From: Candidatus Methanocorpusculum faecipullorum
Lineage (GTDB): Archaea > Halobacteriota > Methanomicrobia > Methanomicrobiales > Methanocorpusculaceae
DNA: 64,000 bases
Assembly (NCBI GenBank): GCA_018883755.1
Contig: JAHLFR010000029.1
Coordinates: 1-64,000 of the forward strand
Reading direction: 5' to 3'
This document shows positions 4,932-9,100 of this stretch, in pieces. How positions within the stretch are numbered: position 1 is the stretch's first letter; each line of letters begins with the position of its first letter. Both the position numbers and the translations under genes were made by a program. Under the pieces are notes generated by a model. That model did not search any database. It saw only the letters and a list, made by a program, of their open reading frames with translations, and was not told the DNA's origin.

Positions 4932-4940
4932 CTATATATA
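4932..4940 (+). promoter_or_regulatory. TATA box of cdrS-ftsZ2
   Basis: CTATATATA lies about 110 bp before the cdrS ATG. The expected transcription start is near 4965, which leaves a leader of about 85 nt containing the repeat array at 4977-5040. Confidence 0.6.
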
Positions 4941-4976
4941 CCAAGAGATGCAATTATGATTTGTCCAAAATTAGGA

Positions 4977-5040
4977 CGTCAGTCGAGTGTCTTACAATTG
5001 TCAGACAAGTGTCGGACAGGTGGCTGACAATTGTCTGAAT
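4977..5040 (+). promoter_or_regulatory. Helically phased operator array, 11-bp period
   Basis: Copies of a 9-bp dyad TGTCNGACA start at 4988 (TGTCTTACA), 4999 (TGTCAGACA), 5010 (TGTCGGACA), 5021 (TGGCTGACA) and 5032 (TGTCTGAAT), every 11 bp exactly. A weaker sixth copy, CGTCAGTCG, starts at 4977 in the same phase. The last copy ends one base before the SD (GGAG, 5041-5044). The array lies downstream of the predicted transcription start, so bound protein could block the polymerase. Tandem short dyads on one helix face are typical of ribbon-helix-helix regulators, and the next gene encodes one. Confidence 0.8.
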
Positions 5041-5049
5041 GGAGTTACA

Positions 5050-5235
5050 ATGGACAGAATCACCATCCGCTTACCGCCGCAGCAGGTAGATCTGCTCGAG
5101 AAGCTCGTGGAAACAGGGGAGTTTCCCACCGTATCGGAAGCCGTCAGATATGCAGTAAGAGAGTTTCTCGCAGGAAGATCAGAGCGGATTCTTCGTGAAA
5201 GTGAACAAGTATCCACATTCGACGTACGACTCTAA
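5050..5235 (+). CDS. cdrS: CdrS-like ribbon-helix-helix regulator
   Basis: A 61-residue protein with one ribbon-helix-helix domain: strand RITIRLPP, helix [14 protein letters not shown], turn FPTVSE, helix [10 protein letters not shown]. Start at ATG 5050 because GGAG precedes it and the upstream extension to 4987 reads through the repeat array. In haloarchaea a protein of the same size and placement, CdrS, controls ftsZ2 and other division genes from a shared operon. Here ftsZ2 starts 26 bases downstream, so the arrangement is conserved. It probably binds the array immediately upstream as an autoregulator; that is inference. Confidence 0.85.
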
Positions 5236-5261: not shown

Positions 5262-6422
5262 ATGCAGAGCATCATTAACGAGGCATTAAAAAATTCAGAA
5301 CTTGAGAAGGGAATGCAGAAGACCTCCATCGTTGACGACGACGACATGCTCGGACAGCCGAGAATTGTCATTGTCGGATGCGGTGGTGCCGGAAACAACA
5401 CCATCAACCGTCTCCACAACATGAGAGTGGCAGGATCGGAGACTATCGCCATTAACACCGACAAACAGCACCTTGACATGATCCAGGCCGACAAGCGTGT
5501 TCTCATCGGCAAATCCCTGACCCGCGGATTAGGTGCCGGAGGATTCCCGGATGTCGGCCGCCGTGCAGCCGAGATGGCCCGCCCGACTCTTGAAGAGATT
5601 CTGAAAGACGCCGACCTCGTTTTCGTTACCGCCGGTATGGGCGGAGGAACCGGAACCGGATCCGCACCGGTCGTTGCCCAGATTGCAAAAGAGCATGGCG
5701 CAATTGTTGTCGCCATGGTCAGCTATCCGTTCCAGGTTGAGCGTGCAAGAATGCTCAAAGCAGAAGACGGTCTGGAAGCAATGCGCCAGGCAGCCGACTC
5801 CGTCATTGTCCTGGACAACAACAGACTCAAGAACTTCGTCCCGAACCTCCCGCTCGGCCAGGCCTTCTCCGTGATGGACCAGATCATTGCAGAAACCGTC
5901 AAAGGCATCTCCGAGACCATCACCGAACCTTCCTTGATCAACATCGACTACGCTGACGTCCGCGCCATCATGAGCAAGGGCGGCCTTGCCGTCATGCTTG
6001 TCGGCGAATCCAAACAGCAGAACAAAGCAGAGAGCGTTATCCGCGACTGTCTCGCACACCCGCTTCTTGACATCGACTTCAGAGGCGCAACCGGCGGTCT
6101 GATCCACATCACCGGCGGCAACGACTTAACGCTCCACGACGCAGAAGAGATTGCACAGCAGCTCACCTACGAGCTTGACCCGCACGCAGATGTCATCTGG
6201 GGTGCACGCGTCCGCAAGGACTTTGAGGGCAAAGTCTCCGTCATGGCAATCATGACCGGTATCCAGAGCCCGCAGATCCTCGGCGGCCACGCAGTAAACA
6301 CCGCACGATCCTCCCGCTCGGAAGGAAGCATCTACGGATTCCAGTCCTCCTCACCAGCCAGCCAGTCCTCAAACAACACCGCAACCGCCCGCAGCGGTTC
6401 ATCCTTCGACTGGATCATGTAA
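5262..6422 (+). CDS. ftsZ2: Cell division tubulin homologue FtsZ2
   Basis: A 386-residue FtsZ with nucleotide-binding VGCGGAGNN (about 38-46), the tubulin signature GGGTGTG (127-133) and T7-loop region [13 protein letters not shown]. The acidic N-terminus ending in [11 protein letters not shown] and segments such as [21 protein letters not shown] agree closely with remembered haloarchaeal FtsZ2, so I choose FtsZ2 over FtsZ1. FtsZ2 polymerises at mid-cell and drives constriction. After the core comes a Ser/Ala-rich linker and a short conserved-looking tail SFDWIM that probably binds a partner. Co-transcribed with cdrS. Confidence 0.95.
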
Positions 6423-6904
6423 GGCTGCCAGCCCATAGTTACACCGGTTTCATACATTACACCACACACAGGTTGGTCCGGGACAAAACCACACCACACT
6501 ACACCACACCAAAACTCCCGGAACCACCCCTCAGGATACAAAGAACGGACAATACCAATACAATACCAATACTCACACGGGGACGGACACAGGGCACAGA
6601 TGTCCGCCCTCAAAACCCCAACCCGCCGCAGGGTTGGAACTTGTGTCATTTGATTTTCCTCAGATTTTCGATATGTTTAAATCAGCATAGCGCTATTTAT
6701 TATAGGAAAGTCGTATATCTGCAGAGCAGAAGCAAAAGGCATACGGCAAAAAGTACAGGAGGTTGAATACCATTCGTTCGCTTGAAATTTTAGATTCGTT
6801 TTTGTCTCATTCTTCATGCAGCTTTGTATTTGATTTCGTGTCCGGTTCCGTATGCACATCCCCGCTCTGATCTGACAGACGACTACTCAGGAAAGGTAAG
6901 AACG
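6423..6904. other. 482-bp non-coding, structured intergenic region
   Basis: No convincing gene is visible. It holds an A/C-rich run (6489-6510), two perfect tandem copies of the 11-mer AATACCAATAC (6551-6572), an inverted repeat CGGACA/TGTCCG (6584-6606) and a hairpin CCAACCC/GGGTTGG with loop GCCGCA (6618-6637). AT-rich promoter-like sequence follows at 6675-6704. A strong SD, AGGAGG (6757-6762), abuts a TTG that opens a 35-codon frame ending at 6870; no ATG follows at normal spacing. Confidence 0.6.
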
Positions 6905-7786
6905 TTGACCGAAGATCTTGTCGAAAAGAGAAAAACACTCCTTGAAGAGTCCGAAGAACACAAAGCAAAACGCAACGAGTTAAACGCGCAGGCAAGCCAG
7001 TTTGCACGCGAGAGAAACGAGTTGAACAATGCAACCCGTCAGTATGTTGAGGATGCACAGAAGAACAAAGAACTTCGTGACCAGTACAACAACGACGTCC
7101 AGGCTCTGAAAGAACAGCGCAATGAGTTAAACGACAAGGCAAATGCACTCTTTGAGGAGATTGACGCACTCAGAGGCGATGCAGGTTCCGGCGCAGCCGC
7201 TGCAAGCCATGAGAAGAAGGCATCCGTAAAGGACATCCTCCGTCAGATTGAGTCTCTTGAAGAGAGACAGCAGACTGAGGTCATGACGACGGAGAAGGAG
7301 CGCGAGCTTGTTGACAAGATCAAGCAGCTCCGTGCCGAAGTCAAAGAGCAGGAAGTTGAGCACGAGCAGAACAAGGAAGTTCGCAGCCGCCTTATCGAGG
7401 CCCGCGAATACCGCAAGCAGGCATCCGCACTCCACGCAGATGTGACCGAGAAGGCAGAGCTTGCCCAGAAGCACCACGACCTGATGGTTGAGTGCTACCG
7501 CAAAGCCGACAAGTCACGCGAGGGTGCAGACGCAAAACACAAACAGTTTGTCGAGGCTCAGGAAGCAGCAGATGCAGAGCACAAAGCATTCCTTGAGTGC
7601 CAGAAGAACCTCCGCGACTACGACAAAGTCCTGACCGGCATGCGTTCCAAGCAGAAGAAGGTCAAGACCGTCAAGGAGAACAAGTCTGCACGCAAGGAAG
7701 CAGAGACCATCTTCAACGCTTTCAAGAGCGGCGAGAAGCTGACGACCGAGGACCTGTTAAAGCTCCAGCGGTCGAAGCTTATCTAA
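6905..7786 (+). CDS. Archaeal coiled-coil protein (COG1340-like)
   Basis: About 293 residues, nearly all charged heptad coiled coil: one long segment to about residue 100, a short Gly/Ala-rich break (DAGSGAAAAS), and a second coil of about 180 residues with repeated KQ/EH/AD patterns. No membrane segment, Cys pairs or enzymatic motif. Such proteins are widespread in euryarchaea and are sometimes misnamed phosphoserine phosphatases. No ATG exists at the N-terminus; I choose TTG at 6905 because AGGAAAGG lies 8 bases upstream and the protein then starts TEDLVEKRK. TTG at 6824 would add 27 residues of low resemblance. A structural or chromosome-associated role is a guess. Confidence 0.8.
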   Translation: MTEDLVEKRKTLLEESEEHKAKRNELNAQASQFARERNELNNATRQYVEDAQKNKELRDQYNNDVQALKEQRNELNDKANALFEEIDALRGDAGSGAAAASHEKKASVKDILRQIESLEERQQTEVMTTEKERELVDKIKQLRAEVKEQEVEHEQNKEVRSRLIEAREYRKQASALHADVTEKAELAQKHHDLMVECYRKADKSREGADAKHKQFVEAQEAADAEHKAFLECQKNLRDYDKVLTGMRSKQKKVKTVKENKSARKEAETIFNAFKSGEKLTTEDLLKLQRSKLI

Positions 7787-7808
7787 ATCCATATTTTTTT
7801 CTGTTTTG

Positions 7809-7825
7809 CGGGACGACCGGTCCCG
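7809..7825 (+). terminator. Hairpin after the coiled-coil gene
   Basis: CGGGAC/GTCCCG with a 5-base loop, placed 22 bases after the stop codon and preceded by a T-run at 7793-7800. The T-run alone may suffice for archaeal termination. Confidence 0.45.
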
Positions 7826-7861
7826 GTGTTACAACGCTGTTTTGTGCAAAAGTTGGGCGTA

Positions 7862-7881
7862 TGTCTGACATTTGTCTCCCA
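7862..7881 (+). promoter_or_regulatory. Two CdrS-type boxes upstream of the DUF373 promoter
   Basis: TGTCTGACA (7862-7870) is a perfect match to the dyad seen upstream of cdrS. A second partial copy, TGTCTCCCA, begins exactly 11 bp later at 7873. Both sit directly upstream of the TATA element at 7883-7891, a position from which a bound protein could activate or occlude. Confidence 0.6.
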
Positions 7882-7882
7882 C

Positions 7883-7891
7883 AGGTATATT
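7883..7891 (+). promoter_or_regulatory. TATA box of DUF373 gene
   Basis: AGGTATATTAT-type element about 30 bp before the ATG at 7919, which implies a leader of a few bases at most. Confidence 0.55.
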
Positions 7892-7918
7892 ATCAAAGAA
7901 CTCGCAAACGTATAGTCA

Positions 7919-9100
7919 ATGACTGCCGGACGGACTCTGATTCTCAGCGTTGATCGTGACGATGACATCGGATATAAAGCAGGAGTGATGAGCCCTGCCG
8001 TTGGGAGAGAGGCCTGTCTGGATGCAGCAACGCGGCTCGGAATTGCGGACCCCGAAGACTCGGACACAAACGCAATCTTCCAGGCCATCAAGACCTACGA
8101 CGAACTTGCCGCCAAAGGTGCGGACGTCGAGGTTGCGGTGATCGGCGGAAACCACATGAATATGCTGGAAGGTGACCGCAGGATTGCGGAGCTTTTGGAG
8201 AAGGTGGTTGCCGAGACCGGAGTGGAGAACTGTATTCTGATCTCGGACGGTGCGGAGGATGAGTTTATCCTGCCGATCATTCAGTCACAACTGAGAATAA
8301 CCAGTGTGGTGCGGGTGGTGATCAAGCAGCTGCCAAACATTGAGGGTACCTACTACATCATCAAGAAGCTGTTCAACGACCCGAAGGTCGCCCGCGGTGT
8401 TCTGGTGCCGATTGCACTGGCGATGATTCTGTATGTGGTCGCATCGCTTGTCTCGGATGAGGTTCCGGCAATGCTGGTTGTCATCGGCATCATCGGTGTG
8501 TATCTGCTGATCAAGGGATTCGGTCTTGACGAGTACATCGGCTACATTTACTACGGCCTTGTTGACTCCTTCCATAAAGGGCGTATATCGTTTGTAGGCT
8601 ACATCATCGCAGGAATTATGGCGATCTGCGGAGCCATCGCAGGCCTTATGAGCATCATCGTCTATTACCCGATCTCCGGGGATGCAGGACTGCTCTACAA
8701 TATTATGACGTTCCTGTACGGTGCGATCATCTGGATGATGGGCGCAGGCCTTCTTGCGGCTGCAAGTAAAATTGCGGACTGTGTGCAGAACGAGCAGAAG
8801 GCACTTGCCCGGATGTTTGTGGTGCCGTTCTTTGTGGTGGCGATCGGGCTGATCATGTACGGTGCGGTGATCTACTTCCTGTCGATCTCGCCGGTGGAGC
8901 CGTTCCCGTTCGATGTCACCGAGGGTATTGCGGCAATTATTCTGCTGACCATTGCCGGACTGATTGTGGCGTTTACGGGCATCTACTACCGGCCGGCGGT
9001 CCAGCGGTATGTGCTTGACTGGATCGAGCGCAAGATGCAGCAGGATGCGGAGGCCGAGACAAAAGGCCGTGCGCCGGTGTATAAGAAGATCAAATATTAA
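7919..9100 (+). CDS. DUF373 family integral membrane protein
   Basis: A 393-residue protein with a soluble N-terminal domain of about 160 residues (ILSVDRDDDIG near the start, then VIGGNHMNMLEGDRRIAE and ISDGAEDEFILP) followed by about six membrane helices (160-360) and a basic tail. This layout is the archaeal DUF373 family, whose function is unknown. The Asp-rich start and the DGAEDE segment suggest metal or phosphate binding by the soluble part. ATG at 7919 sits at leaderless distance from a TATA box. CdrS-type boxes lie just upstream, which may place it in the same regulon as ftsZ2. Confidence 0.85.
   Translation: MTAGRTLILSVDRDDDIGYKAGVMSPAVGREACLDAATRLGIADPEDSDTNAIFQAIKTYDELAAKGADVEVAVIGGNHMNMLEGDRRIAELLEKVVAETGVENCILISDGAEDEFILPIIQSQLRITSVVRVVIKQLPNIEGTYYIIKKLFNDPKVARGVLVPIALAMILYVVASLVSDEVPAMLVVIGIIGVYLLIKGFGLDEYIGYIYYGLVDSFHKGRISFVGYIIAGIMAICGAIAGLMSIIVYYPISGDAGLLYNIMTFLYGAIIWMMGAGLLAAASKIADCVQNEQKALARMFVVPFFVVAIGLIMYGAVIYFLSISPVEPFPFDVTEGIAAIILLTIAGLIVAFTGIYYRPAVQRYVLDWIERKMQQDAEAETKGRAPVYKKIKY

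Follow-up and report, generated by a model that had tools for sequence, protein, structure and literature searches.

A phased array of TGTCWGACA boxes as a probable CdrS operator in front of cdrS-ftsZ2 of methanogenic archaea

The leader of cdrS in Candidatus Methanocorpusculum faecipullorum carries six TGTCWGACA-like dyads built on TGTCNGACA, which follow one another at exactly 11 bp throughout. This array is probably a multi-dimer operator of CdrS, a ribbon-helix-helix (RHH) protein, and would serve the negative autoregulation of cdrS-ftsZ2. It lies in a window of 64,000 nucleotides (contig JAHLFR010000029.1, positions 1 to 64,000), the window being the whole stretch of DNA that was analyzed. 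How the amounts of division proteins are controlled in FtsZ archaea is poorly known; the array represents a defined, testable candidate for a DNA switch before ftsZ2, is common to methanogens and anaerobic methane oxidisers, and provides the letters and the geometry of a putative CdrS site. A published description of this operator was not found in the literature on CdrS, FtsZ2, and RHH tandem operators, the coverage of which was incomplete.

Architecture of the array and its promoter

By direct reading, the dyads start at 4977, 4988, 4999, 5010, 5021, and 5032. They are scored by matches to the eight fixed bases of the box, and the elements of the control region and the operon are the following:

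4932..4940, + strand: TATA box CTATATATA, centre at about 4937, direct reading
4962..4970, + strand: box-like element TGTCCAAAA at the predicted transcription start site (TSS), out of register, 6/8
4977..4985, no strand assigned: array box 1, weak, CGTCAGTCG, 5/8, in the 11-bp register
4988..4996, no strand assigned: array box 2, TGTCTTACA, 7/8
4999..5007, no strand assigned: array box 3, perfect, TGTCAGACA, 8/8
5010..5018, no strand assigned: array box 4, perfect, TGTCGGACA, 8/8
5021..5029, no strand assigned: array box 5, TGGCTGACA, 7/8
5032..5040, no strand assigned: array box 6, abutting the Shine-Dalgarno (SD) sequence, TGTCTGAAT, 6/8
5041..5044, + strand: SD sequence GGAG of cdrS, direct reading
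5050..5235, + strand: cdrS, 61-aa RHH protein and proposed ligand of the array (PF01402 RHH_1, E 6.8e-8)
5262..6422, + strand: ftsZ2, second gene of the operon (PF00091, E 1.9e-45; PF12327, E 1.1e-31)

An earlier note, made from the sequence alone, had proposed five (perhaps six) boxes at exact 11-bp steps. Six are found, and the five-box chain scores 36/40, with 26 being the top score of 20,000 dinucleotide shuffles of the 400 bp upstream of cdrS. The box at 4977, which had been regarded as a possible sixth, is in register, and its counterpart (box −6 when numbered from cdrS) is kept across Methanomicrobiales. Two boxes are perfect as described; those at 4988 and 5021 have one change each, the one at 5032 has two, and the one at 4977 has three. 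The single 9-mer is not enriched in the window, with 32 matches at up to one mismatch compared with 29 expected. Hence, the signal is the phased arrangement. A pattern search of the window's own genome gave no further tandem pair above chance. A second tandem site in the window at 7862-7881, a two-mismatch pair upstream of a DUF373 gene, is not conserved: it is absent from the relatives where the DUF373 gene was found and is thus taken as chance. Tandem matches with up to one mismatch elsewhere in the phylum and away from cdrS (e.g., L181, L194, L219, L221, and L223) occur near the expected chance rate, and those that were inspected sit within coding sequence or at unrelated positions.

The TSS is predicted near 4963 by the usual offset of ~26 bp from the TATA box. 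The array, therefore, extends downstream of the TATA box from about +14 relative to this predicted TSS to the SD sequence, which suits a negative autoregulatory operator, whose site lies at the regulator's own promoter or downstream of it. From the TATA centre to the ATG of cdrS, the window measures 113 bp, which is also the median in Methanomicrobiales (10-90%: 110-117); this near constancy indicates that the length of the whole control region is held. The first box follows the TATA centre at a median of 39 bp, which likewise places the array downstream of the predicted start. The start of the out-of-register element TGTCCAAAA precedes that of array box 1 by 15 bp. At the predicted TSS, TTTGTCC (window 4960-4967) is kept in the leaders of the genus, outside the 11-bp register.

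The product of ftsZ2 is an FtsZ with an FtsZ_C domain and shares 63-93% identity with FtsZ2 of relatives. Behind cdrS-ftsZ2 (window 6824-9100) lie a gene for a DUF7121 coiled-coil protein and then one for a DUF373 membrane protein; the order cdrS-ftsZ2-DUF7121-DUF373 is kept in most sampled Methanomicrobiales. A stretch 3' of ftsZ2 (window 6440-6590) resembles simple repeats (ACCACACCACAC, ACAATACCAATACAATACC).

Conservation of the array and its linkage to cdrS

The array was found in all 88 Methanomicrobiales examined, each locus lying above the 99% shuffle level. Box spacings in the 88 cdrS leaders peak at 11, 22, 33, 44, and 55 bp, with 189, 184, 146, 70, and 53 pairs, respectively; shuffled leaders yield 0.4 pairs at 11 bp. 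A lack of the 11-bp period in relatives had been named beforehand as refuting the proposal; this period is dominant in 88/88 Methanomicrobiales leaders as well as in most other non-halophilic Halobacteriota. Six in-register boxes are present in 53 of the 88 leaders and seven in nine. The order-wide profile is the symmetric TGTCWGACA, joined by 2-bp spacers that lean toward A/T. Even the strength of the individual boxes is conserved across the order, with −1, −4, and −6 being strong and −5 weak (numbered from cdrS). GTC of the last box is conserved to 98-100%, and TGGC is a frequent variant at boxes −2/−3, which is relevant to box 5 of the window. In two genomes of the order with a stated completeness of 98% and 95% (G002 and G089), no cdrS and no strong match to FtsZ2 was seen, owing to either loss or an assembly gap. 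As a further CdrS target in this order, ftsZ1 was considered and rejected, with boxes in 0/9 promoters examined.

Given that the array lies inside the predicted transcript, the boxes might form 5'-leader hairpins through which translation or decay is controlled. The RNA of the array indeed folds better than shuffled sequence does (mean z −3.8), which is expected of palindromes in a row. However, changes on both sides of neighbouring boxes stay at the level of independence (100 vs 100.4; 69 vs 80), meaning that no compensatory change between neighbouring boxes was found. Moreover, the spacing is fixed at one helical turn of DNA, and haloarchaeal ftsZ1 has the same box and spacing upstream of its TATA box, presumably untranscribed from that promoter. 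An RNA element is, thus, highly improbable.

Beyond the order, the 99% shuffle level is exceeded by 7/7 loci of ANME-2, 8/8 of ANME-3, 27/27 of Methanoperedenaceae, 3/3 of Methanosarcinaceae with cdrS, 5/5 of a peat lineage, 3/3 of Methanocellales, and 9/9 of Archaeoglobus-like genomes. Loci of related genomes do not count as independent trials, yet the pattern extends over many families. The longest of these arrays, with nine boxes of which the first lies right behind the TATA box, belong to ANME-2 and ANME-3. About eight boxes each are found in the three Methanosarcinaceae and the peat lineage and about five in Methanoperedenaceae. Rows are shorter in Methanocellales and also in Archaeoglobus-like genomes; the latter often have three boxes, spaced 11 and 10 bp apart. 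One family (f18) is irregular, with one of two loci passing and the other scoring at chance level.

The array is absent from 12/12 ftsZ2 loci without cdrS, which belong to Methanosarcinaceae and Methanotrichaceae-like families (family names partly inferred). The same is seen within a single genus (g48), where G208 has neither cdrS nor array, whereas G257, G261, and G333 have cdrS together with an eight-box array. Hence, the array travels with cdrS and not with ftsZ2. At the level of genome comparison, this linkage is the strongest comparative evidence for CdrS as the putative ligand.

Halobacterial sites and the sign of regulation

In Halobacteria, cdrS promoters carry no such array, the row being above shuffle level in 0/17. 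Instead of the TGTCNGACA row, 15 of 20 upstream regions (L150-L169) contain GTAAGAC-n-GTCTTAC near the promoter, the halves of which are often 11-12 bp apart. For the RHH protein CdrL, ChIP-seq in Halobacterium salinarum showed binding only in front of cdrS-ftsZ2, and CdrL is reported absent outside Halobacteria (PMC7439475). GTAAGAC-n-GTCTTAC is, thus, a candidate CdrL operator.

This precedent of another RHH protein before cdrS-ftsZ2 raises the question of whether the array is bound by a DNA-binding protein other than CdrS. Such a ligand is very unlikely, considering the confinement of CdrL to Halobacteria, the small number of further RHH genes per genome, and the lack of the array in ftsZ2 genomes that lack cdrS.

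The TGTCWGACA-type box reappears at another gene. In 11/11 Halobacteria, the ftsZ1 promoter contains two [CT]GTCNGAC[AG]-like boxes exactly 11 bp apart, and this pair ends 10-14 bp before a TATA-like sequence. The pairs score at least 14/16, which shuffles reach in 0.4%. For Haloferax, CdrS ChIP-seq revealed a site 50 nt upstream of the ftsZ1 TSS that has "notable symmetry"; the promoter of cdrS itself is not listed, and ftsZ1 falls upon CdrS depletion (PMC8406309). Haloarchaeal CdrS, hence, seems to activate ftsZ1. A scan of six Halobacteria genomes with the 20-bp pair returned 7-12 sites each, with none in the reversed control. One of them precedes dacZ, another ChIP target in Haloferax; the position of this pair is identical in the 5/13 genomes whose dacZ promoters carry it. 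The proteasome genes, also Haloferax CdrS targets, were rejected as conserved targets, with a tandem box in 0/30 loci of 13 Halobacteria genomes. Tandem YGTCNGACR pairs in Halobacteria are furthermore located near cetZ, a bactofilin gene, an RPA-like gene (no Pfam hit), and three DUF7139 membrane-protein genes (loci L255, L256, L259, L253, L176, and L254). Altogether, this suggests that the target of CdrS has changed, from its own operon in most Halobacteriota to ftsZ1 and further genes in Halobacteria, with cdrS-ftsZ2 of the latter being controlled by CdrL. The haloarchaeal arrangement, which the earlier note had drawn on as a parallel, holds for the protein and the gene pair but not for the promoter, the haloarchaeal box being at ftsZ1 and not at cdrS-ftsZ2.

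Because the Haloferax ChIP-seq does not include the cdrS promoter and ftsZ1 appears to be activated, homology does not settle whether CdrS activates or represses here. CdrS might bind the array but activate its own operon, as it seemingly does at ftsZ1, in agreement with the matching box and spacing and with the depletion effect on ftsZ1. Positive autoregulation is nevertheless unlikely: the array reaches from downstream of the TATA box through the leader, which is unusual for an archaeal activator, and the ftsZ1 pair lies upstream of the TATA box. In archaea, sites located at a promoter or downstream of it are usually repressive (PMC8406309), and repression by the RHH proteins of archaeal viruses involves spreading across the TSS and promoter (PMC5569661). 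These two observations combined point to cooperative autorepression of cdrS-ftsZ2.

CdrS, its proposed mode of action, and known systems

CdrS of the window is a single-domain RHH protein of 61 aa, within the CdrS size limit of 70 aa. Its gene directly precedes ftsZ2, and ftsZ is located downstream of every cdrS homologue in loci L130-L149. R3, T5, and R7 are invariant in an alignment of 16 Methanomicrobiales sequences; these base-facing residues 3, 5, and 7 read R-T-R in both methanogens and Halobacteria, and Archaeoglobus-like forms have K/R-S/T-R instead. The AlphaFold monomer (mean pLDDT 79.6) consists of two helices and no strand, which can be expected of such a model since the RHH strand pairs only in the dimer. 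Among solved structures, ParD antitoxins have the closest fold (best E 6.7e-3). Past the RHH core, a C-terminal tail (window 5182-5232) is conserved within clades: 71 of 78 distinct Methanomicrobiales CdrS sequences contain a [DE]Q[IV]S-like motif ([DE]Q[IV]S-F-like), most Halobacteria contain WAKV, and Archaeoglobus-like forms end in -FT, -FV, or -YS. The tail looks like a partner-binding motif.

RHH dimers contact the major groove via a two-stranded sheet. In the array, one CdrS dimer would do so at each TGTCWGACA dyad, and owing to the spacing of one helical turn, five to nine dimers would be aligned on one face of the DNA. Neighbouring dimers probably touch and bind cooperatively, as suggested by the phasing only. 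The row covers the leader approximately from the predicted TSS up to the SD sequence; hence, a filled array would keep RNA polymerase from initiating or escaping, leading to less transcription of cdrS-ftsZ2 and presumably keeping CdrS and FtsZ2 in a narrow range. In short, we infer that CdrS binds the array cooperatively, represses its operon, and affects the dose of FtsZ2.

Arc and MetJ dimers likewise occupy tandem sites next to one another. Subsites of Arc are ~11 bp apart, and its operator comprises two sites; MetJ boxes measure 8 bp. With its 11-bp register in 88/88 leaders and its symmetric profile, the array shares the Arc-like arrangement of dyads about one helical turn apart but differs from both systems by having up to nine sites at one turn each. 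Both had been put forward as parallels; the Arc-type spacing of 11 bp and plasmid partition iterons come closer to the array than MetJ does. SSV1 F55, SvtR, and AvtR are archaeal viral RHH repressors, the sites of F55 being two tandem repeats of ATAGATAGAGT (PMC5569661). They resemble the proposed system in autorepression and in spreading along tandem sites over the TSS or promoter but are viral and have another sequence, fewer repeats, and no cell-division target.

In the partition cassettes parMRC and tubZRC, iterons precede the gene of a small DNA-binding protein that represses its own synthesis, and a filament gene lies next to it (PMC5016525). The order of array, DNA-binding gene, and filament gene is the same here, and in particular that of tubC-tubR-tubZ; parC, moreover, consists of tandem repeats bound by the RHH protein ParR, also a repressor (PMC5016525). 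Together with the clade-conserved tail of CdrS, this would allow for a segrosome-like site, in which rows of CdrS form a scaffold recognised by FtsZ2 filaments, much as ParR on parC is by ParM or TubR on tubC by TubZ, and autorepression is a second function. This is the least probable of the readings. The filament protein is the division protein FtsZ2 and neither ParM nor TubZ, the cassettes are plasmid-borne with ParM or TubZ as motors, and cdrS-ftsZ2 has no known partition role. Furthermore, Halobacteria have kept CdrS and FtsZ2 but not the array, and their CdrS works at dispersed promoters. Scarcely more probable is a chromosomal, segrosome-like scaffold of CdrS rows that contacts FtsZ2 via the conserved tail and couples the division filament to one fixed place on the chromosome, autorepression being a by-product.

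Two haloarchaeal systems are also close to the proposed CdrS operator. The site of CdrL in Halobacterium salinarum (PMC7439475) is similar in that an RHH protein is bound in front of cdrS-ftsZ2 but differs in that CdrL is restricted to Halobacteria, most of whose cdrS promoters have GTAAGAC-n-GTCTTAC in place of the array. Haloferax volcanii (PMC8406309) has an orthologous RHH protein encoded upstream of ftsZ2, and the haloarchaeal ftsZ1 promoter shares the GTC-N-GAC box in an 11-bp pair. There, the pair is found upstream of the ftsZ1 TATA box and at other genes, in the position of an activator, with none at cdrS, whereas the present array comprises five to nine boxes downstream of the TATA box at cdrS itself.
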